The position numbers and the translations under genes are program-made. A stretch of DNA of 64,000 nt from Sabellastarte sp. h YS-2021 (taxonomy: Eukaryota; Annelida; Polychaeta; Sabellida; Sabellidae), in NCBI GenBank assembly GCA_964017235.1, contig OZ024927.1:50225293-50289292 (forward strand), read 5' to 3'. This document shows, piece by piece, positions 16,229 through 63,182 of the stretch (the stretch's first letter is position 1; the number at the start of each line of letters is the position of its first letter). The notes under the pieces were generated by a model, which searched no databases, was not told the DNA's origin, and saw only the letters and a program-made list of their open reading frames with translations.

Positions 16229-16640
16229 GTGAGTACCAAATCTGTTTTAAAATATCTGTTATACATCTCAATTATGTTTTAATCACAGAAAACCAAACAA
16301 ATGAATGACCAGCGCCCCTTCATATTTGTCTAAAACTGTTACACAAAAGTACAAAGTTTTATTTAATTGTTAATGCTTAGTTATAATTAGCTGTACACAA
16401 GTTCAATTTTTATATAACAATAAACTCTGTAAAGGTAAAACACCAGCAGCCAAATCAAATTTGTGTAAAATTTAAACCAGTTTTAAGATTCAAATATTAG
16501 AAAAATGCAGTATTTTTGTATGTATGAGTGCCACTTAGCCAAAACTGGAACTAAAGGCTTGTAGATATTGGAGGGTTTAGTTCTACAGAATTAATTAAGC
16601 GTCCCGCAAGGGACGCTTGTTTGTGTATGGGAGAGCTTCT

Positions 16641-16702
16641 GGCTCCGCCGGCTCCGCCGGCTCCGGCGGCTCCGCCGGCTCCGCCGGCTCCGCCGGCTCC
16701 GC
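16641..16702. repeat. GC-rich microsatellite, GGCTCCGCC units
   Basis: About seven near-perfect 9-bp units of GGCTCCGCC with one variant unit lie just inside the left end of tandem-array element 1. Similar GC-rich runs occupy the same position in the other array elements of the window. Confidence 0.9.
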
Positions 16703-17031
16703 ATTTTGTTTTCCTTATAACTCTGTAACCGTTAGGCGGATTCTTTTCAAATTTGGCAGGTTTAGGCAGTAGCCTTGGGGAATTTTTTTGAATATGCTGC
16801 AGTGACATTTCAACCAATCAGAGAGGTCACATGACCAAAAATGTCTTTTTTCGATGGGGAAGCTTGTCCGGATGATAACTTGAAAGGAATTTTATCAATT
16901 CACCTGAAACTTGGCAAATACATTCATTCTATTAAAATCTGGAAATCATTAGATTTTGGCATTGATTGGTCAAGAAATGGCCGAGTAATTAATGATTAAT
17001 TAATCATTACGAATTTTCCAAATAAGGAAAA

Positions 17032-17960
17032 CACAAAAATGCTTATATCTCGAAAACCGTGCTAGATAGAGCGATTTCGACGAAATTTTTGACCCACAGG
17101 GTATCTCTGCGGAGTAGTTTTCCCAATTTTCAAAAAATTTTTGTCTCGCCCAAAATGGCGGCCATTTTGAATTTTCAAAATTTTCGCAAAAATTGCAAAA
17201 CACAAAAATGCTTATATCTCAAAAACCGTGCTAGATAGAGCAATTTCGACAAAATTTTTGACCCGCAGGATATCTCTGCAGAGTACTTTTCCCAATTTTC
17301 AAAAAATTTTTGTCTCGCCAAAAATGGCGGCCATTTTGAATTTTCGAAATTTTCGCAAAAATTGCAAAACATAAAAATGCTTATATCTCGAAAACCCTGC
17401 TAGATAGAGCGATTTCGACGAAATTTTTGACCCACAGGGTATCTCTGCAGAGTAGCCATGCCAATTTTCAAAAAAATTTTGTCTCGCCAAAAATGGTGGC
17501 CATTTTGAATTTTCGAATTTTTCGCAAAAATTGCAAAACATAAAAATGCTTATATCTCAAAAACCCTGCTAGATAGAGCGATTTCGAGGAAATTTTTGAC
17601 CCGTAGGGTATCTCTGCAGAGTAGCCATGCCAATTTTCAAACAAAAAATTTCTCGCAAAAAATGGCGGCCATTTTGAATTTTCGAATTTTTCGCAAAATT
17701 GCAAAACACAAAAATGCTTATATCTCGAAAACCGTGCTAGATAGAGCGATTTCGACGAAATTTTTGACCCACTGGGTATCTCTGCAGAGTAGCCATGCCA
17801 ATTTTCAAAAAAAATTTGTCTTGCCAAAAATGGCGGCCATTTTGAATTTTCGAATTTTTGCGCAAAAATTGCAAAACACAAAAATGCTAATATTTCGAAA
17901 ACCGTGCTACATAGAGCGATTTCGACGAAATTTTTTATCTTCAGGGTATCTCTGCAGAGC
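17032..17960. repeat. Satellite A, 169-bp period, about 5.5 copies
   Basis: Unit starts (CACAAAAATGCTTATATCTC) fall at 17032, 17201, 17370, 17539, 17707 and 17877, a spacing of 168-170 bp. The core CTTATATCTCGAAAACCGTG and the phrase AAAATGGCGGCCATTTTGAA recur. Minus-strand open frames across the array are repeats of the same unit read in shifting frames, because 169 is not a multiple of three; they are not genes. Confidence 0.95.
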
Positions 17961-17972
17961 AGCTATCCCAAA

Positions 17973-20765
17973 GAGCTTTCACTTGGTGAAGTTTCAGACC
18001 CATAGCTAATTGCTCACCTACTCAAAAAGAGTAAATGCGAATTACCTCTAAAAGTATTGCAGATGGCCAATTTTTCTCAAATAACTCATTCACCTACTTT
18101 TGGAAGAGCTTTCACATGGTGAAGTTTCAGATCCATAGCCAATTACTCACCTACTCAAAATGAGTAAATGCGAATTATCTCTAAAAGTATTGCAGATAGC
18201 CAATTTTTCTCAAATAACTCATTCACCTACTTTTGGGAGAGCTTTCACATGGTGAAGTTTCAGACCCATAGCTAATTATTTACCTACTCAAAATGAGTAA
18301 ATGCTAATTATCTGTAAAAGTATTGCGGATACCCAATTTTTATCAAATAACTCATTCATCTACTTATGGGAGAGCTTTCACATGGTGAAGTTTCAGACCC
18401 ATAGCTAATTACTCACCTACTCAAAATGAGTAAATGCGAATTATCTCTAAAAGTATTGCAGATAGCCAATTTTTCTCAAATAACTCATTCACCTACTTTT
18501 GGGAGAGCTTTCACTTGGTGAAGTTTCAGACCTATAGCTAATTACTCACCTACTCAAAATGAGTAAATGCGAATTATCTCTAAAAGTATTGCAGATAGCC
18601 AATTTTTCTCAAATAACTCATTCACCTACTTTTGGGAGAGCTTTCACTTGGTGAAGTTTCAGACCCATAGCTAATTACTCACCTACTCAAAATGAGTAAA
18701 TGCGAATTATCTCTAAAAGTATTGCAGATAGCCAATTTTTGTCAAATTAATCATTCACCTACTTTTGGGAGAGCTTTCACTTGGTGAAGTTTCAGACCCA
18801 TAGCTAATTACTCACCTACTCAAAATGAGTAAATGCGAATTATCTCTAAAAGTATTGCAGATAGCCAATTTTTCTCAAATAACTCATTCACCTACTTTTG
18901 GGAGAGCTTTCACTCTGTGAAGTTTCAGACCCATAGCTAATTACTCACCTACTCAAAATGAGTAAATGCGAATTATCTCTAAAAGTATTGCAGATAGCCA
19001 ATTTTTCTCAAATAACTCATTCACCTACTTTTGGGAGAGCTTTCACTTGGTGAAGTTTCAGACCCATAGCTAATTACTCACCTACTGAAAATGAGTAAAT
19101 GTGAATTATCTCTAAAAGTATTGCAGATAGCCAATTTTTCTCAAATAACTCATTCACCTACTTTTGGGAGAGCTTTCACTCTGTGAAGTTTCAGACCCAT
19201 AGCTAATTACTCACCTACTCAAAATGAGTAAATGTGAATTATCTCTAAAAGTATTGCAGATAGCCAATTTTTCTCAAATAACTCATTCACCTACTTTTGG
19301 CAGAGCTTTCACTTGGTGAAGTTTCAGACCCATAGCTAATTACTCACCTACTGAAAATGAGTAAATGTGAATTATCTCTAAAAGTATTGCAGATAGCCAA
19401 TTTTTCTCAAATAACTCATTCACCTACTTTTGGGAGAGCTTTCACTTGGTGAAGTTTCAGGCCCATAGCTAATTACTCACCTACTCAAAATGAGTAAATG
19501 CGAATTATCTCTAAAAGTATTGCAGATAGCCAATTTTTCTCAAATAACTCATTCACCTACTTTTGGGAGAGCTTTCACTTGGTGAAGTTTCAGACCCATA
19601 GCTAATTACTCACCTACTCAAAATGAGTAAATGCGAATTATCTCTAAAAGTATTGCAGATAGCCAGTTTTTCTCAAATTAATCATTCACCTACTTTTGGG
19701 AGAGCTTTCACTTGGTGAAGTTTCAGACCCATAGCTAATTACTCACCTACTCAAAATGAGTAAATGTGAATTATCTGTAAAGTATTGCAGATAGCCAATT
19801 TTTCTCAAATAACTCATTCACCTACTTTTGGGAGAGCTTTCACTTGGTGAAGTTTCAGACCCATAGCTAATTACTCACCTACTCAAAATGAGTGAATGCG
19901 AATTATCTCTAAAAGTATTGCAGATAGCCAATTTTTCTCAAATTAATCATTCACCTACTTTTGGGAGAGCTTTCACTTGGTGAAGTTTCAGACCCATAGC
20001 TAATTACTCGTCTACTCAAAATGAGTAAATGCGAATTATCTCTAAAAGTATTGCAGATAGCCAATTTTTCTCAAATAACTCATTCACCTACTTTTAGGAG
20101 AGCTTTCACTTGGTGAAGTTTCAGACCCATAGCAAATTACTCACCTACTCAAAATGAGTAAATGCGAATTATCTCTAAAAGTATTGCAGATAGCCAATTT
20201 TTCTCAAATAACTCATTCACCTACTTTTGGCAGAGCTTTCACTTGGTGAAGTTTCAGACCCATAGCTAATTATTCACCTACTCAAAATAAGTAAATGTGA
20301 ATTATCTCTAAAAGTATTGCAGATAGCCAATTTTTCTCAAATAACTCATTCACCTACTTTTGGGAGAGCTTTCACTCTGTGAAGTTTCAGACCCATAGCT
20401 ATTTATTCACCTACTCAAAATGAGTAAATGCTAATTATCTGTAAAAGTATTGCGGATACCCAATTTTTATCAAATACTCATTCATCTACTTGTGGGAGAG
20501 TTTTCACATGGTGAAGTTTCAGACCCATAGCTAATTACTCACCTACTCAAAATGAGTAAATGCGAATTATCTCTAAAAGTATTGCAGATAGCCAATTTTT
20601 CTCAAATAACTCATTCACCTACTTTTGGGAGAGCTTTCACTTGGTGAAGTTTCACACCCATAGATAATTATTCACCTACTCAAAATGAGTAAATGTGAAT
20701 TATCTCTTAATAGTATTGCAGATAGCCAATTTTTCTCAAATAACTCATTCACCTACTTTTGGAAG
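17973..20765. repeat. Satellite B, 133-bp period, about 21 copies
   Basis: Unit starts (GAGCTTTCACTTGGTGAAG) fall at 17973, 18106, 18239, 18372 and 18505, exactly 133 bp apart, and continue to about 20765. Neighbouring units are nearly identical in the middle of the array and more diverged at its ends. Each unit holds the inverted pair TACTCA-AAA-TGAGTA and the phrase GTGAAGTTTCAGACC, which is shared with satellite C. Confidence 0.96.
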
Positions 20766-21130
20766 ACCTTTCACACACGAAAATGAAAAATTGTGAATAT
20801 CTCGGAAAAGCTATTTCTTCTGCTTTAATGCTCGGCGGGAGATACACACCACGGCAGTGGTCTTGACAAAAATTTTTGTCTCCCCAAAAATGGTGGCCAT
20901 TTTGAATTTTCAAAGTTTTTGCAAAACACAAAAATGCTTATATCTCGAAAACCGTGCTATATGGAGTGAACTCAACAAAATTTTGGACCTGCTGGGTATC
21001 TCTGCAGAGTAGCCATGCCAATTTTCAAAATATTTTTGTCTCGCCAAATATAGCGGACATTTTTAATTTTTTTATTTTTTGCAAAACACAAAAATGCTTA
21101 TATCTTGAAAACCGTGCTAGATAGAGCAGA
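20766..21130. repeat. Decayed satellite A units right of satellite B
   Basis: Partial units with CACAAAAATGCTTATATCT recur at about 20927 and 21087, with AATATCTCGGAAAAGC earlier. Satellite A therefore flanks satellite B on both sides. Confidence 0.85.
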
Positions 21131-21326
21131 CTGCGCTGACTTTGGTTGCCACAACAGTATAAGGCTAGAAACGAAGCATTTTCTTAATACTTTAGCACTC
21201 ACCTTTATATCCTTTTTGGGACGCTTTGTTTTTGCTATGCAAAAACATTATCTTTTTTTTTTGCGAGCGATCCTCTAGTTGATATTGGATGTTGAAGATT
21301 ATTAAATGAACTATGTTTCTTTGCAG

Positions 21327-22229: not shown

Positions 22230-24677
22230 GTAAGAGCAAAATACAGTGTAACCGCATTGACTGAAAATAAAATCAGTTTAAAATAGAATTAGAAGTGAAA
22301 CTCATTTTCTGTTGTATGCATGTAGTATTCTCTTCATGGTAAAATATCCCTGGTATGTGCGATCTTATTTACTGGAGATATTTTTTATCATGTCTGTGTC
22401 TCTTAAATATCATTGTTCAAATTTATTAATGGTATAAAGTATCTGTTATTCCAACTCATACATTTATTATGGCTCAATTTCCAATGACCTGTAAATCTTA
22501 ATACATAAGAATTGTACCATCATTGAAGTTAGAAATCATCTAAAAAATAAACAAGAAAACTTAAAATTCAATGGTATTATGCAAAAGACTAGCGAAATGA
22601 CTAAAAATTGTGTAAAAAATGACATTTGATTCAGTTGACCTGTAATTTAAAATGTCAGTTTGTGAGTTTGGAAATTTCATATTTCTTACATGTATATTTT
22701 TTATCCTGATCCACTAGTGACAAGTTACAGTGTCTGCAGTAATTGCCCTTGGGTTGTTGTGAGAGGGTATTGGTACACTTGTGTATGTTTCTTCAAGTGC
22801 CACTAAGCTAGTGGAAAGGAAATGAGAGGGTCAATTGTAACAGTCCACACTTCCTGTGGGGAGTGAGTGTAACATTATCATATATTCAAGACTTAACTGG
22901 GGAAGTAATTCACGTAATTATGTGAAATAAAGGGAGAAATGTATGAAAAGAGACCAAAGTACAGATTGCTGGTATCAAACATTTGCCATATCTTTGAAAA
23001 AAACTAAGTAGGACTTAAACCCCCTGTTGGAACAAAATGGATTCTATCCAAAGTACAGTGGACTCTATGTATAAGTAGAACCTACTTCCACTTGTATCTT
23101 CAAAATGTCCAAGATACACTCAGTTTTCTGATATTTGGTCCCACATTTATACCTGAGTTTGGCTAACATTGTTGCAGTTGTGCAGAGTCACCTATACTAC
23201 AAATATACTTTCAGTCTGAAAAATTTTGGGTTTTAATATTTTGTGATTTTTTTTTTAATGAAAATCCCCTCATTTTCATAATATCAGTGGGTACACTTTC
23301 AAAAAATATATATATATTTGCAATATTTTTACAGATTCACTAGTACAAGCTCAGTAAAAGTTTTTTAGGATATATATATGATATAATATATTCTATGTAT
23401 GATTTTATTCAAATGTTAGTGTTTGCTGAATTTTTAATTCATTCAAGTAGACTTTGTAAGTGAAAGTTTATTGCCAGTATCATTGAATCTTCTTAACATT
23501 CAAACTTTATGACTAAAAGCTTGCACAGAAAATACTGTACCATACATTGGGTAGTGTGAGTCAACACTTGACAGATTTTGTTCCTTATCTACCTTTTAAA
23601 CCAGTATTTCAACAAACATGCAAGGGTTTATATTGGTAACATTGTCAAGTATTTGTACAGGCATTGAAAGTAAAATGCTGGTTTGTCAGAAGTGACCGCA
23701 TGTGTGTAAAAGCAAGAAACAGGATTTTGTCATATTTCCCCAGACAGGAACAATGACGCATAATATTTGGAGACACTTTCTCTTATTTGTCAGCATACTT
23801 TGTTTGTTTAACATATGGGCAATTTTGTCTTTTGAATCATTCATCACAAATTTACGGCAAACATTTGGATAATATGGCGCTGTTACAGAAGTGTGCCTTA
23901 TAAATAAGCAGACTGTGTCTACTGTGGTATTCACCAGCATGCCAAGTAATGTAGTTAACTTACTCTGTCCTTTAGGATGGCCAATTAACCAATGTTCTTG
24001 ATGCTAAGTAATATGTTTTCCTGCAGATCAAAAATAATTATGATCTTACATCACAGTAAAGGACATTAAATTTAAGTGCTAATCATTTTATTATAAACCC
24101 TTTCGTACATTTAAAACAAACCTTGATAATGTAATTCTCAAATAGGCCTGTTTAATTACACAGCACTTAAAGTCTCCTCTTGTCCTCAATTAGAAGACTT
24201 GAATACACTGTTTACTTGTGATAAGCGGCAAAGTGACATAGTGTTGCATGTCTCTTATGTGTTGGTCTTAGATCATCTACTTCCGCCAATAGAATCATTT
24301 TACTTATGCATATGTACCAAGTGATTTGACACTTTTGTTATGTTGTACACCTGAGGTATAGAATAATTCCTTTGCATAATCTAAGATTTCTGTCAGAGAT
24401 ATTTTGTTGAATATTTTATACCAAGATAGTATTAAATATTCTTCATATGTTTCAAGAATTTCTTCTCCTTTGTTGATTTAAATATTTGGATTTCAAAGTA
24501 TCTTTTTACCTGCTATAGAGATAAAATATTTAGTGTAACTTTAAATTTAAGGTGACAAAAAGCTTGATTAATTCTACTGGAAGATATTAACCATTGAGTG
24601 ACATAAGACTTTTGGTATCTTAAATAAGTTATTCACCTCGGTGTGATGCATTTTGGAGACCCTCTTCACTTTTTTAT
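22230..24677 (+). other. Left part of intron 5
   Basis: AT-rich intron follows exon e. It contains a TATATA tract near 23310 and no recognisable gene, RNA or mobile element. Confidence 0.55.
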
Positions 24678-24718
24678 GTCAGCTGACTTGTCAGTCAGCT
24701 GACATTATGTCGTCACTC

Positions 24719-24752
24719 TGCGGCGTGGGCGTACGCGTACGCGTCCGCGTGA
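24719..24752. repeat. GC-rich alternating run near left end
   Basis: The run is of the type GCGGCGTGGGCGTACGCGTA, with CpG-rich GCGTAC/GCGTCC steps. It sits at the same relative position as the GC-rich microsatellites of the other array elements. Confidence 0.8.
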
Positions 24753-25097
24753 ACAACTTCTCCTCCAAAACTACAAGGCCTAGAGACGTGCTGTTTCTTT
24801 TAAAAGATACCTTATCTATCGAGGATGAAAAATTGTTCAAGGCATGCAAATCTGTCTGTTCGTCTGTTTGCTAGAGACATTACAAGGGGGGTACCCCCAC
24901 CAAAAGTGTGAAAATTTCAACACTTAATCACAATTTTCTCAGTGACTATTGCAGGGATTTCTCTCATATCTTGCATATATGTACAAGGCCAGAGGTAGAT
25001 TCTCTTGTGTGAGTATGAGACCTGGATCTGTCTTACTTTTTTTTTAATAAATTTTTTTAATAATTTTTAATGCATTAAAATTCATGAAATCATGCAC

Positions 25098-28728: not shown

Positions 28729-29470
28729 TGCATTTATAGTATTTCTCTAAATATTTTTAACCTACTTTTTACACTTAAACAATTACCTTGTTACTTTATT
28801 TCATAATACCATTTGCAGGGCACAACTTTTTTGTCCTTTTCTTCTGTCAGCTTCGGAATATCTTTCGAACATGCTGTTCAGTTACCATTTACTGTATTTC
28901 TGTACAGCCCTTTCCCTGATAATTATGCTTTCCTCTCATTATCACCATCACAAATCAAAAACATTCAGTCAGCTGACACAGTGCCCGTTCACGGGCACTC
29001 TCCTCTTGTCTTGTCAAGATATGGACTTACTCTGGAGCTTCTACTGAAGATTTTGTTAATATTTTTGGTCCTTATTTGTTTACGCTCTATCTATTATAAT
29101 TATATCGATATCAGTGAGCAGAAATGCCATGTTTTATTAAATAAGTGATGACTCTTTATAACCTCCATCTCACTTGTCAACACTTAAATTATTGGAAACA
29201 AACCACATATTTTAAGAAATTGTACACTTTCATCCCATATTTTGTGCATTTTGGGACTTTTGTTGCAATTTCATTAAGAGGAAATGTCCATGTTTAATTG
29301 GGGTGTACTAAATCGGAGCCCTGGAATAGGAACAATGTTGCATTGGTGACCTCCCAATCTACACAATTTTTGACACCGACTCATCCCTACTTACAAGGTT
29401 ATGACATGTTGGCAAATGTGACAGAACAGTTTGACTAAATTAAACATCAGGAATTATAATGTACTTTCAG

Positions 29471-35770: not shown

Positions 35771-35774
35771 CAGC

Positions 35775-35872: not shown

Positions 35873-35933
35873 AGAGAAGAGTCCCACCCTACCTCCCCGC
35901 TGTATTACAGCTGAGGGGACATGGGTTTAATCT

Positions 35934-52365: not shown

Positions 52366-52382
52366 TTTTATTACGCTACAAT

Positions 52383-52531
52383 AGCTTATCATGTGGGACT
52401 GAATGCTGTTCTCGGGTTGCCACACCCGGGGCCAACGTCTTAGAAAAAAAGATCGTTCTTGTTAGCCACCGGATATACTGGTAGTTGTCGTCACGTGATA
52501 ACTTCTGACCAATCGCCCTACTTTCTCGTTG
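52383..52531 (+). repeat. Left inverted terminal repeat of DIRS copy 2
   Basis: It is the reverse complement of 58449-58597 with about two differences. It shares only its outer part (GTGGGACTGAATGCT) with the repeat of copy 1. Confidence 0.9.
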
Positions 52532-52756
52532 GCCACGATGACTGGTAGCAGTTTGTAAATATACAGACATTTTCATTTATTTCTCAGTATTCACGTATTG
52601 TTGGAGGCTAATATTTGGATATTTCTTTAAATATATTTCATAGATTATACTGTAAAATTTTTAATTTCACAACTTAAGTATTTTCCTTACAATCCGCGTG
52701 TTTTGAGTTTTCTCGGTTCAGGCAATTTCAATTGTACGTCTTTTTATTGCGTTAAA

Positions 52757-54905
52757 ATGTCTCTTCATCAAGCAAACTAAGACAAACCGAGAGCTCAGAA
52801 ATGCCGCCATTTTTGCTTCAGTTTTGATACTCATAATTACTGCCCTACCTGTAGGGAGGCTGGCAAGGGAGATGACCCCTGTGTCACTTTTGAAGCACCC
52901 TGCCATATTTGCACGTCTCTCTCTGATGAACAATTGCAAAAAATTCAAAACAGGAAGCGGTACTTAAAAAAGCAAAAAGCGGAAACTAGTTCCAAAGATG
53001 AACTAGATCTCTTGGGTGAAGGCGATGGGGACTCTTTTACTGGTTCTAATGCAGACCTTGAGAGTGCTGCCGATAACCTCTTTACCTCACCCCCCCGTCC
53101 TCAACCTCTCGCCTTCAGTTCTTTATCACTAAAGACCCCAGCCAAGACTGTTCCTCCCACCCCAGGTACTGTTCTACAAAACAAAATTCAAAGAAATCTA
53201 GAGAAATCCCAGGGTGATTCCTTAAATATACATATCCAGCAGCAAATGGGTTCCTTCCAGGCATCCATGTTAGAAGCATTTCAATCACTCCGAGAGGAGT
53301 TGGCAGTTAAAAAGTCTGCCGAGGTTGATCCCTCGCCTCATGCTTCAAAAGCTGGTCCATCCAGCAACTCTGCTGCTCATCTGGACCTACCCCCTCCGAG
53401 GTCAAGTTCTAATGCACAGTCCGAGGCAATGGATGTGGACGTTGGTCCAGCACTCCCTCCTCGACTAGTACTTAACCAAACTTCCTCGGATCAGTACGTT
53501 GCCCCTTCTGAAGCAATACCGAAGGATTCCTCGTACTCACACAAAAAACAAAGCCACAGGCAAACAGTAGCACCGAGCTCTGCCTCGGATCATCTGGATG
53601 AGGATTCCGACGAACCTCGGATCCATCCTAGACCTAAGAAACACTCTGACAAGAGCAAGCATAAATCTAGGTCCAGATATGTGTCATCTTCAGAGGAAGA
53701 TCACTCCCCTGTGGCCAGACACAGGTCTTCTAAGCCCTCTAGGGCTCAGCCGTCAGGCGCAGCTTCTGATCAAGACCTCCCACAACATGATCCAGACCCC
53801 CCTTATTATAGGGAAGTAGCCCTGTCTGACATTCCCTCCCAATACTCTGAAGAGGTAGACACCTTCAGGCGCATTCTTTCTCTCCCTGACCCCAGGGACT
53901 CTATGCCTAGGTCTTCAACTTCAGTGTTGGGTCTGGATGACGAAAAAGGCCGTCAAGAGCTCAGACCTAGAGGTCCTTCCTCTATCCTACCACTTAGCTC
54001 AGTTATCAAGGACGCCTTTGATAAATTTCAACATGATTTCAAAGCTGCCAATTTATCTGAGGGAAAATATGTCAAGCCTCCTCCTTCCACTTCTAAGTGG
54101 TATAAGGTTGGACAGCCCACTTTTCAAGACAAAATCCAGGAGTTGAATATGGACTTTGCCAAGATCTGTATTACTCCTAGACCTCCTGGGGCACCAGTAG
54201 CCAAAGTCCCTATGCCAGTTGGAACATCAGGCTAGACAAAATATCTCAACCCTCAATTTCACCGCTGCCTTTGCCAAAACCTCTTCTTCTTGCAATGCTT
54301 CCTTGGAGAAGTGCCAACATAGCATCAAGTCAACTGTCAAGAAGATAAAGTCTCAGATCCAGAAAGGTGCCAATCCTGAGAAAGCAGCAAAGCGCGGATA
54401 TGAGGAAGTTGCTGAGTACTTGGATTTTTGGAACAAGACGGTTCTTGTTCAACATAGAGCTCTTACCTGTCTCAGCAAATCGCTAGCCCATATTCTCCAG
54501 AGGGAATTATATTCCATGGCTAATACCGGCTTGCTTAGGTGCGAAGCCAAAATGACTCTATTGCATCCCCAGCTAGGGGAAACGAGACGCCAAGAACTTA
54601 GGAACTCGTCCTTCTGGGACTCCTCCTTGTTCGAGTCTCAACTTGTAAAGGAAGGTGAGGACTTCCTTCTCAAAAAAGGCACCTCAAAAGATTCTCAGGG
54701 TTTTTCACCCTACCAGAATAAGCCCTTTCGTGGCCCCCACAAGAAAAGAGGCTCCTACAGGAAACGCCCCTATGGGGGCAATACCTCTCAAAGCAGTAAC
54801 CAGTCCTTTCCCTCGGGAAGAGGAAAATCCAACTTCAGAGGCTCCAGGGGTCGTTTTCGACCCCACAATAGGGGAAGGGGACGTGGAAACCCCCCTTCGC
54901 AATGA
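52757..54905 (+). pseudogene. gag-like region of DIRS copy 2 (broken)
   Basis: Its order of parts matches that of copy 1: a Cys-rich head (CxxxC and CPTC spacing near 52800-52920), a Ser/Pro/acidic low-complexity middle with PKKHSDKSKHKSRS, a Lys-rich helical part, and an Arg/Gly-rich tail (FRGSRGRFRPHNRGRGRGN). About two breaks are present. The best-preserved stretch is the 433-codon frame at 52934-54235. Confidence 0.75.
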
Positions 54906-56961
54906 CTCCTCCAAAGCCTCATTCAGTCCACCAGTAGGAAGTCGCCTCCGTTCTTTCAAGAGAGACTGGCTAACAAACAAATGTTCTCAAAACGTGTTAA
55001 ATATTATCACCAATGGCTACGTTCTGCCATTCCGTTCAAAGCCAAACTTGATCAGTTTTCCTCTGATTCTATCAGAGTACAAGGCCCAACAAAAAGACCA
55101 AGCCTTGGCCACTTGTATCCAGTCTCTCTTGTCAAAGAACGCCATCGAAAGGGTGGAAAACGTAAAATCTCTCGGGTTTTACAGTCGCCTATTCCTAGTA
55201 CCCAAGCCTCACCAAAGGTGGAGGCCAGTCATAGACCTAAGCAGGCTCAACACTTTTCTACATGTAGAAAAGTTCAAAATGGAAACCCCGGAGTCCATCC
55301 GGACTTCCCTGGTCCTAGGGGAGTGGGTATCATCGATAGAGCTGTCGGACGCATACCTTCACATCCCCATCCATCCAAACTCAAGGAAGTACCTAAGGTT
55401 TTGCTACAAGGCCCAGGTGTTCCAGTTCACCTCCCTACCTTTCGGACTGGCCACAGCCCCCCAGGTCTTTACGATGATCGTAAAGGAAGTGAAACTAATG
55501 GCCCTCTCAAGAGGACTCAGAATTCACCAATACCTGGACGACTGGCTGATCAGGTCCCAGTCCCAGGAGGAATCTCAAAGGGACACACAGGCAGTGGTAG
55601 ACCTAACCCAATCCTTGGGTTGGATAATCAACCAGGAAAAATCAGAACTGAAACCTACTCAGGTGTTTTCGTTCGTGGGCTACGAATACCACCTAGATTC
55701 AGCCCTTGTAAGACCCACTCACGAGAGATGGCTCAAACTTCAGGATTTGATCCTACGACTCAAGTCAAAACATGTTTTGACTGCAAGATGTTTGATGTCT
55801 CTAATTGGGTTGCTAGCCTCAACGGAGAAAATGGTCCCGGAGGGACGCCTTCACATGAGGCCCTTTCAGTTTCATCTCAAGGAGCACTGGAGATATCCTC
55901 AGTCGCTGGACAACCTCCTTCCTTGGACAGAAGCCATTGTAGCCCACCTAGATTGGTGGCAAAACCCCTCAAATGTGATGAAAGGCGCAGACCTTCATCC
56001 CAAGGACCACAGTATCCAACTCTTTACCGACGCCTCAAACGAAGGTTGGGGCGCTCACTTAGATCAAAATTCTACAAAAGGGCTGTGGTCAGAGCGGGAA
56101 AAAAGGCTACACATAAATGTCCTGGAATTGAAGGCGGTCTCCCTGGCCCTTCGAGACTTCAAGGACCAGTGCCAGAATCAAACAGTGTTAGTTGCGACGG
56201 ACAACTCAACAGTGGTAGCCTACATCAACAAGCAAGGGGGAACTCACTCAGCAGAGATGTGCGCTCTCCTGTGGAAAATCATGACCTGGTGCCATCACTA
56301 CCATATAACATTGAAAGCCAGGCACATTCCAGGGTGTCTGAATGTGATGGCCGACCTCCTATCCAGGTCCAACCAAGTGCAGTCAACAGAATGGTCCCTG
56401 CACCCTCAGGTCTTCAAGCAAATCTGCCGAAAGTGGTTCACCCCTCATGTAGACTTATTCGCCACTCACCTGAATCACAAACTCCCTCTATATGTGTCTC
56501 CTATCCCAGACCCAAGGGCCTGGAACATAGATGCTCTGAACATAAACTGGACCAACCTCACGGCCTACGCCTACCCTCCTATGGCTCTCCTTCACAAGGT
56601 GATCCAAAAGATCAAGCAATGCCATTGCCTGATCATCGTGATAGCCCCAGGCTGGCCAGGGATGCCCTGGTTTTGGGACCTAGTGCAGCTCTCAACAGAG
56701 ATCCCACTACAACTCCCAGTGTCAACGACCCTACTCAAACAGTCCCACAACTATGTGTTCCACAACAATCCACAACAGCTGAACCTCCACGCCTGGTGTC
56801 TAGGAGCGGACAACTCCAAGAACAAGGCTTCTCTGTGGAGGTGGCAGAGAGAATTGCTGCCCCTCAGCGGTCATCAACAAGGACCATCTACAGGTCAAAG
56901 TGGGCCCTATTGGAAAAATGGTGCAGAGAAAATTCGGTGGATTTCTCCACTCCATCTGTGA
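54655..56961 (+). CDS. Reverse transcriptase / RNase H frame of DIRS copy 2
   Basis: The 768-codon open frame looks whole. It holds RPVIDLSRLN, SDAYLHIPIHPN, LPFGLATAPQVFT, QYLDDWLI (catalytic Asp pair), then RNase H with FTDASNEGWGAH, LELKAVSLAL and ATDNSTVVAYIN. A C-terminal part follows with HVDLFATHLNHKLPLYVS. Almost every motif is identical to copy 1. It overlaps the gag-like tail at its 5' end and the recombinase frame over most of its length. Confidence 0.9.
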   Translation: MRTSFSKKAPQKILRVFHPTRISPFVAPTRKEAPTGNAPMGAIPLKAVTSPFPREEENPTSEAPGVVFDPTIGEGDVETPLRNDSSKASFSPPVGSRLRSFKRDWLTNKCSQNVLNIITNGYVLPFRSKPNLISFPLILSEYKAQQKDQALATCIQSLLSKNAIERVENVKSLGFYSRLFLVPKPHQRWRPVIDLSRLNTFLHVEKFKMETPESIRTSLVLGEWVSSIELSDAYLHIPIHPNSRKYLRFCYKAQVFQFTSLPFGLATAPQVFTMIVKEVKLMALSRGLRIHQYLDDWLIRSQSQEESQRDTQAVVDLTQSLGWIINQEKSELKPTQVFSFVGYEYHLDSALVRPTHERWLKLQDLILRLKSKHVLTARCLMSLIGLLASTEKMVPEGRLHMRPFQFHLKEHWRYPQSLDNLLPWTEAIVAHLDWWQNPSNVMKGADLHPKDHSIQLFTDASNEGWGAHLDQNSTKGLWSEREKRLHINVLELKAVSLALRDFKDQCQNQTVLVATDNSTVVAYINKQGGTHSAEMCALLWKIMTWCHHYHITLKARHIPGCLNVMADLLSRSNQVQSTEWSLHPQVFKQICRKWFTPHVDLFATHLNHKLPLYVSPIPDPRAWNIDALNINWTNLTAYAYPPMALLHKVIQKIKQCHCLIIVIAPGWPGMPWFWDLVQLSTEIPLQLPVSTTLLKQSHNYVFHNNPQQLNLHAWCLGADNSKNKASLWRWQRELLPLSGHQQGPSTGQSGPYWKNGAEKIRWISPLHL

Positions 56962-57914
56962 AACAAATCTCAGATTTTTTCATGTACCTGTACCAAGACC
57001 TAAACAGGCGCCCCTCGACCATTGATGGTTACAGGACTGCTATCGTTGACACTTTGGGCCCAACGGCCCAACACATTGCGCACAATGCAGACCTTCATAG
57101 GTTACTCTCCAGTTTCCACAGGGATCGTCCTAAAAGTTCCAGAAATTTACCCAAGTGGAACCTTTCTGTTGTCCTTAATGAGCTCACCAAAGCACCATTT
57201 GAGCCCATGAAAGACTCAGACCTCAAACATCTTACTCTCAAAACTGCTTTCTTGCTAGCCTTGGCCTCCGGCAAGCGCCGCAGCGAAATCCATGCCTGGG
57301 TCGCTAACAAAGTAGCTAATTTAGGCCAATGGGAAAAGGTAGCCTTGTTCCCTTCTGATTTCATAGCCAAAAACCAACTAGCAAGAGAAGGTTCTCAAAG
57401 TGTGTCACCAGTGACTATTCCTGCTTTGACTACCATTGTAGATAGACAGTTTAAGGAAGACAGGACCCTGTGTCCCGTGCGGGCCTTGAGGTTCTATTTG
57501 GACCGAACTAAAGACCTGAGAGGGTCTCGTTCTCTCCTTTTCATCTCCTTTAAGAAAGGACATACCTCAGACATCAGACCCGCTACACTCTCCTCATGGT
57601 TGAAACAAACCATTCTACTTTGTTATAAACAAGCAGATCAACAAGCCTTGGACTTGGTCCAAGTCAAAGCGCATGACATCCGGGCCTTCGCGGCCTCTAA
57701 GGCCTTTTACGGTGGAGTATCGGTGGACCAAATCATGCAAGCCTGTCACTGGAAAGCTCACAACACATTCACAAATTTTTACCTAAAAGGGGGGGGGGGG
57801 GGGGGGGCACATCCGCTACAACCAAGTCTTCAGGAGTCTCTCCCAGGATCTAGGTATTCCTTTACCTTCAAGATGTTACGGGTAAGGTCATTTTATTTTT
57901 CAATTATCAGGTAA
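54981..57914 (+). CDS. Tyrosine recombinase frame of DIRS copy 2
   Basis: The open frame has 977 codons. The recombinase domain occupies roughly the last third, with KWCRENSVDFSTPSVKQI, ASGKRRSEIHA, AHDIRAFAAS and CHWKAHNTFTNFYL in order. As in copy 1, the upstream two thirds overlap RT/RNase H in a different frame and stay open for about 1.9 kb. The end of the frame differs from that of copy 1. Confidence 0.8.
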   Translation: MFSKRVKYYHQWLRSAIPFKAKLDQFSSDSIRVQGPTKRPSLGHLYPVSLVKERHRKGGKRKISRVLQSPIPSTQASPKVEASHRPKQAQHFSTCRKVQNGNPGVHPDFPGPRGVGIIDRAVGRIPSHPHPSKLKEVPKVLLQGPGVPVHLPTFRTGHSPPGLYDDRKGSETNGPLKRTQNSPIPGRLADQVPVPGGISKGHTGSGRPNPILGLDNQPGKIRTETYSGVFVRGLRIPPRFSPCKTHSREMAQTSGFDPTTQVKTCFDCKMFDVSNWVASLNGENGPGGTPSHEALSVSSQGALEISSVAGQPPSLDRSHCSPPRLVAKPLKCDERRRPSSQGPQYPTLYRRLKRRLGRSLRSKFYKRAVVRAGKKATHKCPGIEGGLPGPSRLQGPVPESNSVSCDGQLNSGSLHQQARGNSLSRDVRSPVENHDLVPSLPYNIESQAHSRVSECDGRPPIQVQPSAVNRMVPAPSGLQANLPKVVHPSCRLIRHSPESQTPSICVSYPRPKGLEHRCSEHKLDQPHGLRLPSYGSPSQGDPKDQAMPLPDHRDSPRLARDALVLGPSAALNRDPTTTPSVNDPTQTVPQLCVPQQSTTAEPPRLVSRSGQLQEQGFSVEVAERIAAPQRSSTRTIYRSKWALLEKWCRENSVDFSTPSVKQISDFFMYLYQDLNRRPSTIDGYRTAIVDTLGPTAQHIAHNADLHRLLSSFHRDRPKSSRNLPKWNLSVVLNELTKAPFEPMKDSDLKHLTLKTAFLLALASGKRRSEIHAWVANKVANLGQWEKVALFPSDFIAKNQLAREGSQSVSPVTIPALTTIVDRQFKEDRTLCPVRALRFYLDRTKDLRGSRSLLFISFKKGHTSDIRPATLSSWLKQTILLCYKQADQQALDLVQVKAHDIRAFAASKAFYGGVSVDQIMQACHWKAHNTFTNFYLKGGGGGGAHPLQPSLQESLPGSRYSFTFKMLRVRSFYFSIIR

Positions 57915-58281
57915 TTTCTATTAAGGACTTAGTCAGTTGTCGTTAATCTCATATTTCAGGTTAAAAATTTCATGAGATGCCCGACCACTGGGTTGGTCAG
58001 TCACACGTGAAGGTCTAATAGGGACCCTTAGACCTTGAAGTGAGCACTGCTGCACTTCCGTCCTACTACCAAACATCTGGACAGTTTTAGCACTGTCCCT
58101 TTTTACTCAAGTTTTTGGCTCGTTACAGGCCCGATCTTCGGGATCGGGGCTCTGTAAAAGGGACTCAGACTGGCATTTCTGGCACTATTCTGTATATATT
58201 AATTCAAATCTTAAAAAAAAAAAAAAAAAAATTACATATCTTCCAGTCTCAGCTGTAATCCCGCCACCGGGCGGTTGAATT
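57915..58281 (+). other. 3' non-coding part of DIRS copy 2 with conserved hairpins
   Basis: The stem at 58122-58158 has arms TTACAGGCCCGATC and GATCGGGGCTCTGTAA with a TTCG-type loop. It corresponds to the hairpin of copy 1 with paired changes. The CCGCC-ACCG-GGCGG hairpin is present near 58261. Confidence 0.7.
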
Positions 58282-58383
58282 CAGCATTAAGTCCCACATG
58301 GTAAGCTATTGTAGCGTAATAAAATTGGAAATTTTAATTACTTAAATGTAGCTTTTATAAGCTACAAGCTTACCATGTGGGAC
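58282..58383 (+). repeat. Internal complementary region of DIRS copy 2
   Basis: Complements of the left end (GGTAAGCTATTGTAGCGTAA) and of the right end (CTTAAATGTAGCTTTTATAA) are joined here. This is the circle-junction template of the element. Confidence 0.9.
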
Positions 58384-58448
58384 TTAGGAGAGTCCCACCC
58401 TGCCTCCCCGCTGTTTACAGCTGAGGGGTAGGTTTAATAAAAAATTTT

Positions 58449-58597
58449 CAACGAGAAAGTAGGGCGATTGGTCAGAAGTTATCACGTGACGACAACTACC
58501 AGTATATCCGGTGGCTAACAAGAACGATCTTTTTTTCTAAGACGTTGGCCCCGGGTGTGGCAACCCGAGAACAGCATTAAGTCCCACATGGTAAGCT
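58449..58597 (-). repeat. Right inverted terminal repeat of DIRS copy 2
   Basis: It is the reverse complement of the left repeat at 52383-52531. The outermost right end follows to about 58639. Confidence 0.9.
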
Positions 58598-58805
58598 TGT
58601 AGCTTATAAAAGCTACATTTAAGTAATTAAAATTTCCAAATTTATACAATTAATGCACCTAGTTTTCAGTATAAAACCCCTTTCACATTTCTATGTTTTA
58701 CTAAATGGGTTTATGTAGGTGAAATGTGGGGAAAAAGTGGCAAAATCTGTACACAAGTTAAAATTGTATATTTTATCATTGAAAACATATAATTCATATA
58801 GTTTT

Positions 58806-60376
58806 TACCCCACAGGGCTGTTGGGGTATTGTTTTCACCCATGGTGTCCGGATGCGCGGGCGGGCGGGTGGGCGGGCGGCCGGAAATAGTTTGTCCGGGC
58901 TGTATTTCAGAAACCGTAAGGTGTAGGAAGTTGATACTTGGTAGGGACATTGGCTAGGGGGTGTAGCTGTGCAACGTCATGGTCTGACCTTGATTAGACC
59001 TTTGACCTTGCTGTAGTGACCTTGAGTTTGAAAATCTTGTCCGGGCTATATCTCGGAAACTGTAAGGTGTAGGAAGTTGATACTTGGTAGGGACATTGGT
59101 TAGGGGTGTAGTTGTGCAACGTCATAGTCTGACCTTGGTTTGACCTTTGACCTTGTCCTATAAAATCTTGTCCGGGCTATATCTCGGAAACCGTAAGGTG
59201 TAGGAAGTTGATACTTTGTAGGGATATTGGTTAGGGGGTGTAGGTGTGCAACGTCATGGTCTGACCTTGATTTGACCTTTGACCTTGCCGTAGTGACCTT
59301 GACCTATAAAATGTTGTCCGGGCTATATCTCGGAAACTGTAAGGCTTGGGAAGTTGATATTTGGTAGGGACATTGGTTAGGGGGTGTAGGTGTGCAACGT
59401 CATGGTGTGACCTTGATTTGACCTTTGACCTTGCCGTAGTGGCCTTGACCTATAAAATCTTGTCCAGGCTATATCTCAGAAACCGTAAGGTGTAGGAAGT
59501 TGATACTTGGTAGGGATATTGCTTAGGGGGTGTAGGTGTGCAGCGTCATGGTCTGACCTTGATTTGACCTTTGACCTTGTCGTAGTGACCTTGACCTATA
59601 AAATGTTGTCCGGGCTTTATCTCGGAAACTGTTAGGTGCAGGAAGTTGATACTTGGTAGAGACATTGGCTAGGGGGTGTAGGTGTGCAGCATCATGGTGT
59701 GACCTTGATTTGACCTTTGACCTTGCCATAGTGACCTTGACCTATAAAATCGTCAGGGCTGTATGTCGGAAACCGTAAGGTGTAGGAAGTTGATACTTGG
59801 TAGGGACATTGGTTATTGGCTATAGGTGTGTACTATCATGGTGTGACCTTAATTTGACCTTTTACCTTGCCGTAGTGACCTTGACCTTTAAAATCTTGTT
59901 GCACCTTTGGGTCTGTCTTTTGATGCAGATTAAGCAAAAGTCATATTAGAATTTATTAAGAATTTTACTTTCATAACTTCCCATTGTAAGAGATAGAATT
60001 TCATCAAGTGAGCCGCAGATTTTACTCCAACACCACACATAAGCATTCATTAAATGTATTACCACTTCTGTATGCATGGTAATATTCAAACCATCTAAAC
60101 CATAATTCGGAAATGCAGATGTATATAAAGAGTGTTGAATTTTAGTTTACTGATTAATGCTGTCATCTTGTCATTGAATTATCTTGTTTTAATACTTCAT
60201 ATTTATACGCATTATCTTTCTTTTAAACATTATTTCTCCATTTAAACATTGTTTGGACCTTTATATAACTGACAGTGCTCTGAAAGTATCCTGAACTTTG
60301 TACTGGTACAGTACTTCTATATCTCATGGTGTTGAAAATATTTCCCAAGGCTGTGGGGTACGGGCATCTCTGATCC
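58806..60376 (+). mobile_element. Tandem-array element with 146-bp satellite E, fuller copy
   Basis: The left end TACCCCACAG is mirrored by CTGTGGGGTA at 60351-60360. A GGGCGGGCGG microsatellite lies just inside the left end (58857-58880). Eight satellite units occupy 58900-59900, and a 450-bp unique part follows. Directly beyond the right repeat, GGGCATC-TCT-GATCC may be a decayed hairpin like those of the other array elements. The short copy at 38751 shares the left end, satellite and unique part. Confidence 0.65.
58900..59900. repeat. Satellite E, 146-bp period, about 7-8 copies
   Basis: The phrase GGAAGTTGATACTTGGTAGG or a variant falls at 58926, 59072, 59203, 59349, 59495, 59641 and 59785. 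The spacing is 146 bp except for one shorter unit. Units contain CTATATCTCGGAAACCGTAA and several TGACCTTG motifs. Confidence 0.95.
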
Positions 60377-60471
60377 TATTTTAATACAATAGAAGTATGG
60401 TGAACCATAGGGTTTTCAGGCTATTAAAAATGATTGCTTTCTGTAAACAGTTAAATTTTCAATATGAATTG

Positions 60472-63182
60472 AATTGTATCCACCGGATTTGGCTTCGTTA
60501 CGCCGCCGCCGCTGCCAACGCAGTGTGTAGAAAGATGTCACCGTTACCCGCTCTAACGAAAAAATATTATAGCTAGCCTTCTCAAATTTGCAGGATATAT
60601 TCATAACCATAAAATCTTACCTGGGAATATTTTGATGGTAAACCAACCTATAGGAAATCATGGGCTGGGAATCTTTTGGTGTGGTCAGATTTGACCTTGG
60701 ACCCCTCCTTCAAGGTCAATCGAGGATAGTCAAAGTTAAAAGTGCTTATAACTCGCTTATTATTGGTCGTACAGATTTGGGATGGTAAACCAACCTATAG
60801 GAAATCATGCGCTGGGAATCTTTTGGTGTGGTCGAATTTGACCTTGGACTTCTCCTTCAAGGTCAAACGAGGATAGCCAAACATAAAAGTGCTTATAACT
60901 CGCTTATTATTGGTCCTAGAGGTTTGGGATGGCAAACCAAGCTATAGGAAATCATGGGCTAGGAATCTTTTGGTTTGGTCAGATTTGACCTTGGACTCCA
61001 CCTTCAAGGTCAAACAAGGATAGCCAAACTTAAAAGTGCTTATAAGTCGCTTGTTATTGGTCATACAGGTTTGGGATGGTAAACCAACCTATAGGAAATC
61101 ATGGGCTGGGAATCTTTTGGTGTGGTCAGATTTAACCTTGGACCCCACCTTCAAGGTCAAACGAGGATAGCCAAACTTAAAAGTGCTTATAACTCGCTTA
61201 TTATTGGTCCTAGAGGTTTGGGATGGCAAACCAAGCTATAGGAAATCATGGGCTAGGAATCTTTTGGTTTGGTCAGATTTGACCTTGGACTCCACCTTCA
61301 AGGTCAAACAAGGATAGCCAAACTTAAAAGTGCTTATAAGTCGCTTGTTATTGGTCCTAGAGGTTTGGGATGGTAAACCAACCTATAGGAAATCATGGGC
61401 TGGGAATATTTTGGTGTGGTCAGATTTAACCTTGGACCCCACCTTCAAGGTCAAACGAGGATAGCCAAACTTAAAAGTGCTTATAACTCGCTTATTTTTG
61501 GTCCTAGAGGTTTGGGATGGTAAACCAACCTATAGGAAATCATGGGCTGGGAATCTTTTGGTGTGGTCTGATTTGACCTTGGACTTCTCCTTCAAGGTCA
61601 AACGAGGATAGCCAAACATAAAAGTGCCTATAACTCACTTATTACTGATCCCAGAGGTTTGGGATGGCAAATCAACCTGTAGGAAATCATGGGCTAGGAA
61701 TCTTTTGGTGTGGTCAGATTTGACCTTGGACCCCACCTTCAAGGTCAACTGATGATAGCCAAACTTAAAAGTGCCTATAACTCGCTTATTATTAGTCCTA
61801 GAGGGATGGTATACCAATCTATAGGAAATTATGGACTGGGAATCTTTTGGTGTGGTCATATTTGACATTGGACCTCTCCTTCAAGGTCAAACGAGGATAG
61901 CCAAACTTAAAAGTGCTTATAACTCCCTTATTATTGGTCGTACAGGTTTGGGATGGTATACCAACCTATAGGAAATCATGAGCTGGGAATCTTTTGGTGT
62001 GGTCTGATTTGACCTTGGACCTCTCCTTCAAGGTCAAACGAGGATAGCCAAACTTAAAAGTGCTTCTAACTTGCTTATTATTGGTCGTAGAGGTTTGGGA
62101 TGGTAAACCCACCTATATGAAATCATGGGCTGGGAATCTTTTGGTGTGGTCATATTTGACCTTGGACCCCACCTTCAAGGTCAAACGAGGATAGCCAAAC
62201 TTAAAAGTGCTTATAACTCGCTTATTATTGGTCCTAGAGGTTTGGGATGGTATACCAACCTATAGGAAATCATGGGCTGGGAATCTTTTGGTGTGGTCGA
62301 ATTTGACCTTGGACTTGGGGCTGGGAATCTTTTGGTGTGGTCGAATTTGACCTTGGACTTTTCCTTCAAGGTCAAACGAGGATAGCCAAACATAAAAGTG
62401 CTTATAACTCGCTTATTATTGGTCCTAGAGGTTTGGGATGCCAAACCAACCTATAGGAAATCATGGGCTAGGAATCTTTTGGTGTGGTCAGATTTGACCT
62501 TGGACTCCACCTTCAAGGTCAAACGAGGATAGCCAAACTTAAAAGTGCTTAAGAGTCGCTTATTATTGGTCGTACAGGTTTGGGATGGTAAACCAACCTA
62601 TAGGAAATCATGGGCTGGGAATCTTTTGGTGTGGTCTGATTTGACCTTGGACCTCTCCTTCAAGCGAGGATAGCCAAACTTAAAAGTGCTTATAACTCGC
62701 TTATTATTGGTCCTAGAGGTTTGGGATGGTAAACCAACCTATAGGATATCATGGGCTGGGAATCTTTTGATGTGGTCTCATTTGACCTTGGACCTCTCCT
62801 TCAAGGTCAAACAAGGATAGCCAAACTTAAAAGTGCTTATAAGTCGCTTATTATTGGTCGTATGGGTTTGGGATGGTAAACCAGCTTATAGGAAATCATG
62901 GGCTGGGAATCTTTTTATGTGGTCAGATTTGACCTTGGGCCTCTCCTTCAAGGTCACATGACCATAGCCAAACTTAAAAGTGCTGATAACTTGCTTATTA
63001 TTGGTCATAGAGGTTTGCAATATGAAACCAACTTATAGGAGGTCATGGGCTGGGAATCTTCTGATGTTTTCAGATTTGACCATGGGCCCCTCCTTCAAGG
63101 TCAAATGATGGTTCACTGGCTTTGGTGAGTTGTCTTTTTGGTGGATACAAATTTGCATCGGTTCTCCGATGCGTAGGTCTAG
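60472..63182 (+). mobile_element. Tandem-array element with 147-bp satellite D, HINE/TR-MITE-like
   Basis: The left AATTGTATCCACC (60472-60484) is mirrored by GGTGGATACAAATT (63140-63153). A perfect 7-bp stem GCATCGG-TTCT-CCGATGC follows (63155-63172), and CTAG closes the sequence at 63179-63182. A CGCCGCCGCCGCTGCC run (about 60503) lies just inside the left end. About 17 satellite D units fill the interior. The 3' hairpin followed by CTAG recalls rolling-circle (Helitron-like) ends. That reading is inference. Confidence 0.62.
60636..63110. repeat. Satellite D, 147-bp period, about 17 copies (second array)
   Basis: GGAAATCATGGGCTGGGAAT recurs at 60653, 60800, 60947 and so on, 147 bp apart. 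Each unit carries TTTGACCTTGGAC and TTCAAGGTCAAACGAGGATA. A partial internal duplication occurs near 62320. Units are more diverged at the right edge. Minus-strand frames across the array are repeat-derived. Confidence 0.96.

Follow-up and report, generated by a model that had tools for sequence, protein, structure and literature searches.

Helentron-like elements with shared and nested satellite arrays in a window of an annelid genome

Within the 64,000-nucleotide stretch of Sabellastarte sp. h YS-2021 DNA analysed here (contig OZ024927.1; hereafter the window), we identified five elements that we interpret, with a probability of roughly 85%, as non-autonomous, Helentron-type rolling-circle transposons (HINE). 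All are described on the plus strand: I (16597-21247), II (24677-28999), III (58806-60360), IV (60474-63172) and a fifth element, V (38750 to ~39430), which is a further copy of III truncated at the 3' end, with no 3' subterminal repeat or palindrome. Their HINE-like nature is well supported by their anatomy, which comprises a 5' subterminal inverted repeat (subTIR), in most cases an inner inverted repeat, a GC-rich stretch, internal arrays, a 3' subTIR and, in three elements, a 3' palindrome. Along with this anatomy, the window contains two copies of one family, satellites that are shared and nested across elements with differing ends, and a motif common to the satellite monomers. By analogy with published systems, elements I to V are ordinary members of a kind already described, because the same plan has been reported for Cg_HINE in the Pacific oyster as well as for DINE-1/HINE.

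An initial annotation of this DNA had proposed a shared plan for four elements with unrelated-looking arrays. The shared plan was confirmed, whereas a 3' hairpin in III and the unrelatedness of the arrays were not, and element V and the inner repeat at the left ends had been missed. Four patterns for Rep or PIF1 motifs, which would indicate an autonomous Rep/helicase, had no match in six-frame translations of the window, and searches for Rfam families and tRNAs likewise returned no matches.

Anatomy of the element ends

Complementary 5' and 3' subTIRs were found in elements I to IV, as previously annotated, with arms of 9 bp (I), 12 bp (II), 10 bp (III) and 11 bp (IV), though arm length alone lies within chance in I, III and IV (reached by 435, 269 and 70 of 500 shuffles, respectively, and by 21 of 500 for II). 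Element V has no inverted arm at its ends, its longest pair of 13 bp (12/500 shuffles) being located elsewhere. When an arm of at least 8 bp was considered together with a hairpin within 12 nt at the right end, the combination in I, II and IV was reached by 0, 0 and 2 of 500 shuffles, respectively, and by these same thresholds it is absent from III and V. The subTIR arms reach significance in I, II and IV alone, and there only in combination with the hairpin. A scan of the whole window for an 8-bp arm plus hairpin returned 162 matches on the plus strand and 254 on the minus strand, counts that are inflated by satellites and DIRS-like ends, against a background for both strands together of 61.6 on average and 92 at most in 40 shuffled windows.

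At the left end, the subTIR is typically followed by an inner inverse copy of itself with which it folds into a hairpin, a feature that the initial annotation had not mentioned. This hairpin beats 200 of 200 shuffles in I (subTIR AAGCGTCCC; 16597-16618, -11.1 kcal/mol), in II (12-bp subTIR TGTCAGCTGACT; 24677-24704) and in V (38750-38780), and the weaker one of III, whose subTIR TACCCCACAG has an imperfect inner repeat (58806-58828), beats 193 of 200. The 5' subTIR of IV (TTGTATCCACC; 60474-60484) has no significant inner repeat, as 113 of 200 shuffles fold as well. At the right end, a palindrome is located past the 3' subTIR in I (subTIR GGGACGCTT, palindrome TGTTTTTGC/GCAAAAACA; 21218-21247), II (palindrome AGTGCCCG/CGGGCACT; 28967-28999) and IV (subTIR GGTGGATACAA, palindrome GCATCGG/CCGATGC; 63140-63172), with 0 of 200 shuffles folding as well in each case. 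The hairpin beyond the right repeat, earlier described for all four elements with one copy considered decayed, is therefore present in these three and not in III, where the 3' subTIR CTGTGGGGTA (60351-60360) is followed by no palindrome and the expected site folds to 0 kcal/mol.

A GC-rich stretch is located just inside the left end of all five elements (I, 16641-16702; II, 24720-24752; III, 58854-58883; IV, 60491-60520; V, 38798-38827). Outside two DIRS-like elements, 30-mers with a GC content of at least 0.73 form six runs in the window, five of which are the left ends of I to V and the sixth a poly-G at 2519; the stretch in IV lies just at the cut-off. At its default score, TRF calls a tandem microsatellite only in I (9-bp unit GGCTCCGCC). 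The term microsatellite, applied earlier to the stretches of I to IV, is accordingly loose outside I, while the GC richness and its specificity to left ends hold.

HINE elements insert between T residues with no duplication of the target; in the window, the four bases to the left of the occupied sites read aatt in I, ttta in II, tttt in both III and V, and tgaa in IV. The end sequences differ between elements, as previously noted: across eight flank comparisons, 118, 146, 120, 12, 11, 1, 89 and 136 of 200 shuffles reached the real score, the lowest value (1/200) being that of the left flank of I with that of IV. Elements III and V provided a single pair of copies in which to compare boundaries, the check that the initial annotation had proposed. 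Their left homology boundary coincides, in both copies, with the subTIR adjoining a T run. On the right side, homology ends 2 nt into the 10-nt 3' subTIR of III, and the truncated copy V therefore does not confirm the right end of III.

Internal tandem repeats between short inverted repeats, in elements with no evident coding capacity, are also what would be expected of cut-and-paste MITEs moved by a DDE transposase, and elements of such make-up, the tandem-repeat MITEs of bivalves, were first classified in this way. We consider this improbable given the T run that forms the left flank of III and V, and given that the 3' arm has an extra palindrome past it in I, II and IV and the 5' arm an inner complement in I, II and V and, less clearly, in III; both are the anatomy of a Helentron and not of a TIR-MITE. 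That the window instead contains only independent satellites, i.e., unrelated short arrays with GC-rich and palindromic neighbours that arose by chance, would fit the dissimilar element ends and the arm lengths, which are unexceptional by themselves in three of four elements. This explanation is highly improbable, as it does not account for the joint occurrence of arm and hairpin beyond chance in three elements, for GC stretches found at every left end and, DIRS-like elements aside, at a single further place, or for the left end that III and V have in common as dispersed copies.

Sharing and nesting of satellite arrays

All five elements contain satellite arrays, and the unit lengths of 133-169 bp previously described for I to IV were borne out by TRF, which identified two units each in I (169 and 133 bp) and II (155 and 146/147 bp) and one each in III (146 bp; 58891-59899) and IV (147 bp; 60634-63108); the array of V also has a 146-bp unit (38834-39212). 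The apparent unrelatedness of these arrays did not survive comparison of their units. The 147-bp satellite is shared by II and IV (score 563, against a maximum of 32 in 200 shuffles), and homology also links the 133-bp unit of I with the 155-bp unit of II (139, against a maximum of 36 in 200 shuffles). Monomer identity is 0.880 within II (n = 4), 0.907 within IV (n = 15, one 191-bp piece having been left out for length) and 0.886 between the two. Each of the four II units has its closest relative among the IV units, and such intermingling of monomers is expected if a multi-unit block moved. Exact-pattern scans of viral, bacterial and archaeal collections returned no relatives of the satellites, which says little for an animal satellite, and the only satellite or motif string encountered in PMC text was a generic one in a paper on synthetic decoy oligonucleotides. 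The 147-bp units also contain an inverted repeat, TTTGACCTTG/CAAGGTCAAA, of which both arms are intact in 9 of 19 units.

In both I and II, one array is nested inside another. The outer array of I (169-bp unit, 5.6 copies; 17028-17971) is followed by an inner array of 21 copies of the 133-bp unit (17972-20774), past which 169-bp units resume (20868-21130). The outer array of II (155-bp unit; 25099-27905, with a degenerate first unit at 25099-25246) is followed by the 146/147-bp array (27912-28727), identical in kind to the satellite of IV, and by a remnant of the 155-bp unit (28728-28769). The phase of the outer array in II is nearly continuous, stopping at about position 15-22 and resuming at 28 of 155. 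The phase in I is ambiguous, at 99 and then 106 of 169 if a 93-nt spacer (20775-20867) is counted as inserted, but 9 of 300 shuffles resemble an outer unit as closely as this spacer does; we therefore set outer-array phase aside as evidence.

These results bear on the earlier proposal that the elements form one superfamily that builds and spreads satellites. A superfamily is supported at the level of the plan and by the shared satellites and motif, which go beyond what had been seen. Spread is borne out by the occurrence of the same arrays in separate elements, in II and IV as well as in III and V; that the elements also build satellites is still an inference.

A motif common to the monomers

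A motif of ~30 bp recurs in one orientation in the five monomer families, weakly in the 133-bp family, and four of the five elements also carry it a short distance past the GC stretch. Element I carries a single copy in its leader, close behind the microsatellite (16714-16743), and the first copy of III begins at 58899, within its array. The information content of the motif found de novo is 27.98, compared with at most 25.69 in 60 shuffled sets, and when each sequence was left out in turn, 0 of 1000 shuffles reached the real score for five of eight sequences. The 133-bp unit alone is weak (19/1000, and 244/1000 with a shorter 19-bp matrix), and with this shorter matrix so is the 147-bp unit (29/1000). 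Close behind its GC stretch, II has a weak copy (24756-24785; 9/2000 shuffles); unrestricted tests over the full leader prefer another site (17/1000, and 285/1000 with the 19-bp matrix). The motif was not found in the leader of IV, either on leave-one-out (405/1000) or in the test close behind the GC stretch (1128/2000).

Ranked for conservation among circular 30-bp windows, the motif takes positions 22 of 169, 18 of 133, 130 of 155, 119 of 146 and 132 of 147 (IV). It is more variable than the rest of the monomer in three of five arrays and modestly less variable in two. Present selection on the motif is not supported, because within arrays the motif is no more conserved than the remainder.

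The position of the motif beside the GC stretch suggests one 5' internal segment as the starting point of several monomer families. More tentatively, all of the satellites may descend from one short 5' segment behind the GC-rich microsatellite of an ancestral Helentron-type element, which different lineages would have re-amplified before later trading whole arrays by insertion, so that seemingly unrelated dispersed satellites would be one lineage with a 30-bp signature. The motif might instead have arisen by convergence, or have been retained in unrelated satellites as a binding site for a host protein, with no common descent. Monomer pairs other than 133/155, II/IV and III/V are dissimilar beyond the motif, and conserved motifs in satellite monomers that otherwise differ are discussed as signals for spread in an excerpt of a later review (PMC12628747). 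Such an origin sits poorly with the variability of the motif within the arrays and with the single copy behind the microsatellite of I, outside any array; we regard it as unlikely, if a serious contender. A similar question arises for the nested arrays, as amplification in place of a single-copy stretch within the first array, with no foreign insertion, would produce an array inside an array too. This could apply to I, whose 133-bp unit forms no other array in the window and has only its 155-bp homologue in II, but it conflicts with the situation in II, whose inner satellite forms the whole array of IV, with the units of the two intermixed, and must therefore have existed as an array elsewhere. 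We consider in-place amplification of the nested arrays unlikely.

Proposed mechanism and comparison with known systems

Under the Helentron interpretation, the Rep/helicase of an autonomous element elsewhere would nick at the subTIR end, and one strand would be copied until the 3' palindrome, so that everything between the ends, the satellite included, would be copied along. Arrays may grow by slippage or unequal exchange, and may be exchanged between elements or derive from internal sequence. A new satellite would enter when a block of another array inserts into a unit of the resident one, and in this manner II would have gained its inner satellite from IV or one of its relatives.

The closest published parallel, as judged from excerpts of the report, is Cg_HINE from Crassostrea gigas (Vojvoda Zeljko et al. 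2020, PMC7492417), whose families are mutually unrelated within one genome. The excerpts describe a 5' subTIR, a complementary inner inverted repeat, a microsatellite, a 3' subTIR and a palindrome, as here, with array units of 138-181 bp compared with 133-169 bp in the window; as here, two arrays can occupy one element, and they link no autonomous partner by sequence. The two systems differ in that Cg_HINE is described with one repeat cluster per pair of flanks and with double arrays that are consecutive, whereas here the 147-bp satellite occurs between two unrelated pairs of flanks, and the second array lies within the first. Sharing or mixing of arrays across elements is not new in principle, because the excerpted later review reports for C. 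gigas both one array type spread over different elements and single elements that hold different arrays (PMC12628747). HINE/DINE-1 elements (Thomas, Vadnagara and Pritham 2014, PMC4067079), in the portion of the report drawn on, resemble those described here in their subTIRs, DINE-1-type inner inverted repeat, microsatellite, central repeats, 3' palindrome and, possibly, T-rich target. That study demonstrated T-rich targets, empty sites and an autonomous partner, whereas the elements of the window are likened to HINE/DINE-1 by anatomy.

Within the same excerpts, the oyster work establishes that HINE elements carry satellites and leaves undecided whether the arrays are captured or intrinsic (PMC7492417). 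Two predictions on this question of how dispersed satellites arise and spread, both testable genome-wide, follow from the nested arrays and from the motif past the GC stretch. According to an excerpt of the C. gigas satellitome, several Helitron-associated satellite elements share end boxes, and two share a 156-bp Box 3 between the microsatellite and the central repeats, to which the motif identified here is likened by position only (PMC8268682). The partial account available of pearl elements and of the BIV160/Cg170 satellites of bivalves (PMC5139131) describes diverged monomers with two conserved motifs in common, a likeness to our motif that is drawn by description. As in the window, short arrays are located inside elements of Helentron type, and fragments of other satellites are found beside the arrays (PMC5139131).

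Element ends and their markers

Four elements, at 16597-21247 (I), 24677-28999 (II), 58806-60360 (III) and 60474-63172 (IV), had been described in the initial annotation as sharing one plan, and Tandem Repeats Finder bore out their satellite arrays, I containing units of 169 and 133 bp, II of 155 and 146/147 bp, III of 146 bp and IV of 147 bp. Self-comparison of the window revealed a further copy of III at 38750-39430 (V), which had been missed.

Element ends were searched for from the array borders alone, over 700 bp to the left and 600 bp to the right of each array, as inverted arms 8 bp or longer and a hairpin stem of at least 7 no more than 12 nt past the right arm. The only arm-plus-hairpin matches were the ends proposed for I, II and IV, equalled in 0, 0 and 2 of 500 shuffles, respectively, and the short inverted repeats of these elements were thereby recovered. 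Taken singly, the arm lengths of I, III and IV would fail to convince, being reached by 435/500, 269/500 and 70/500 shuffles (21/500 in II). Folding supported the hairpin proposed beyond the right repeat in I, II and IV (0/200 shuffles each) but showed none in III, whose inverted repeat was recovered as a 10-bp arm of a length within chance and without a hairpin; for V, the end search found neither arm nor hairpin.

At the left end, the 5′ subterminal inverted repeat (subTIR) is followed by its own inverse copy, missing from the initial annotation, so that this end forms a hairpin in its own right. On folding, the hairpin is perfect in I and II and strong in V (0/200 shuffles in all three), weaker in III (7/200 shuffles fold as well) and absent from IV (113/200). 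Both DINE-1 (PMC4067079) and the Pacific oyster elements termed Cg_HINE (PMC7492417) have this inner repeat, described as an IR complementary to the subTIR. Outside two DIRS-like retrotransposons, 30-mers with a GC content of at least 0.73 occur at six places in the window. Five of these are element left ends (I to V, with IV just at the cut-off), and the sixth is a poly-G run at 2519. The GC-rich stretch previously noted inside the left ends of I to IV is a sharp marker of element left ends.

III and V are the sole pair of copies in the window on which boundaries could be compared. Their agreement starts at a T run by the left subTIR, with six flank bases, ATATAG, additionally linked by the aligner over a gap, and stops at 60352/39430, 2 nt inside the 10-nt 3′ subTIR of III (60351-60360), so that V has no 3′ end. 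The check by copies proposed earlier supports the left end but gives no confirmation of the right end of III. About 25 bp past the end of V begins a 524-bp stretch (39456-39979) between 13-bp inverted repeats, CATTGACTCTATT/AATAGAGTCAGTG, that are 92% complementary; it is possibly connected with the missing 3′ end of V. III and IV lie in the same orientation with about 110 bp between them (60360-60474), possibly through repeated insertion into one spot.

Exchanged and nested satellite arrays

II and IV carry one and the same 147-bp satellite (their consensus sequences align with a score of 563; shuffle maximum 32, n = 200), although their flanks show no similarity, the left score being reached by 118/200 shuffles and the right by 146/200, in agreement with the differing end sequences described before. 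After the units were recut in register, mean identity was 0.880 among the 4 units of II, 0.907 among the 15 of IV and 0.886 between the two elements; the unit nearest to each II unit is a IV unit (4/4), and units of II and IV are intermixed in a tree whose support is mostly weak. On these grounds, a block of several units, rather than a single monomer, probably moved.

Homology also joins the 133-bp unit of I and the 155-bp unit of II, which align with a score of 139 (200 shuffles gave at most 36). In I, 169-bp units appear again after the 133-bp array (score 201; at most 31 in 100 shuffles), and in II the 147-bp array is followed by 42 bp left over from the 155-bp unit (score 53; at most 31), the phase of the outer array across the insert being fairly clear in II only. 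These comparisons demonstrate both that elements with different ends share arrays and that arrays are nested in arrays; on the simplest reading, one array would insert into a unit of another. The 147-bp units (27912-28727, 60634-63108) contain an inverted repeat, TTTGACCTTG/CAAGGTCAAA, neither arm of which is damaged in 9 of the 19 units recut, while TGACCTTTGACCTTG occurs in the 146-bp units of III; these sequences resemble nuclear-receptor half-sites.

A motif common to monomers and some leaders

A motif like CTTATAACTCGAAAACCGT-N6-TAGAG is found in one orientation in the monomers of I (169 bp), II (155 bp), III (146 bp) and IV (147 bp), and in the single-copy leader of I, the leader being the sequence from the GC stretch to the first unit. 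With a 19-bp matrix scored leave-one-out, 0/1000 shuffles equalled the 169-, 155- and 146-bp monomers, 29/1000 the 147-bp and 244/1000 the 133-bp monomer; under the full matrix, the leaders gave 0 (I), 0 (V), 3 (III), 285 (II) and 392 (IV) per 1000. A 30-bp matrix built from eight hand-aligned sites, the II and IV leaders among them, and with the homologous 133- and 155-bp units never scoring each other, gave 0/1000 for the 169-, 155-, 146- and 147-bp monomers and for the I leader; the 133-bp monomer gave 19/1000 with its site unchanged, the II leader 17/1000 with a different site, and the IV leader 405/1000. De novo search of seven sequences regained the motif in five, its register shifted by 2 nt, with other sites in the leaders of II and IV; information content reached 27.98, whereas shuffled sets (n = 60) averaged 23.89 and did not exceed 25.69.

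At a cut-off of 14, all window hits of the 19-bp matrix (58/58) fall within the five elements on the + strand, with none elsewhere or on the − strand, and 20 shuffled windows averaged 0.3 hits (at most 2); as the matrix was derived from these monomers, only the absence of hits elsewhere is informative. A degenerate pattern allowing up to 3 mismatches matched 27 times, always in I, II, III or V (0.02 expected), and never in IV or the 133-bp array. In a test designed post hoc, with the alignment already seen, the first 70 nt past the GC stretch held the motif in I (0/2000 shuffles), V (5/2000), II (9/2000) and, weakly, III (44/2000), beginning within about 20 nt of that stretch; it was not found in the leader of IV (1128/2000). 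Compared with the remainder of the unit, the motif shows no clear excess of conservation inside the arrays, which speaks for descent over present function. Searching paper text for the satellite or motif strings yielded no relevant paper.

The elements, once called unrelated-looking, do differ in their ends; given their exchanged or nested arrays and shared motif, they are nevertheless relatives in their bodies.

Class assignment and neighbouring features

Judged by its parts, the anatomy is that of Helentron-associated non-autonomous elements (HINEs): subTIRs, GC/microsatellite and arrays are present, the 3′ palindrome occurs in three of the four elements having both ends, and the inner repeat in 4/5 copies, weakly in III. 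HINEs also insert at T-rich targets without duplicating them; the left flanks in the window end in aatt (I), ttta (II), tttt (III and V) and tgaa (IV). The order of parts is that of Cg_HINE, with similar unit lengths, and that report describes several unrelated families in one genome and elements with two arrays, and links no autonomous partner to them by sequence (PMC7492417). Other work reports similar mixing of arrays among elements in C. gigas (PMC12628747) and two conserved motifs common to BIV160/Cg170 monomers (PMC5139131). Four Rep or PIF1 patterns had no match in six frames of the window. By analogy with the known biology of the group, rolling-circle copying would run from the subTIR end to the 3′ palindrome. 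The initial finding is real, mostly correctly described and of a known kind, to which the nested and exchanged arrays and the shared motif are two refinements.

Among 10 window ORFs scanned against Pfam, two had hits, which give the sequence an animal character. One is a Cadherin-domain exon (44086-44496, + strand), and all five elements are oriented as this gene. The two DIRS-like elements (29800-36120 and 52360-58640) share 83.6% identity along 4.2 kb in the self-comparison and have inverted terminal repeats of 96-97% identity; the second element matched reverse transcriptase and RNase H. Their DIRS label and tyrosine recombinase are presumed, by eye, and the two long frames scanned for the recombinase gave no Pfam hit. 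By eye, tRNA-like A-box and B-box sequences at 63405-63730 and 2220-2600 suggest SINE copies; ARAGORN called no tRNA gene. The ends of 915-1445, GGCTGCAACGA / TCGTTTGCAGCC, also seen by eye and absent from the repeat-search listing, resemble those of a hAT-type MITE. Finally, a palindrome like AGTAAATACGCGTATTTACT is clustered at 36900-37132 and 38387-38502, about 1.3 kb apart, possibly as the ends of another transposon.
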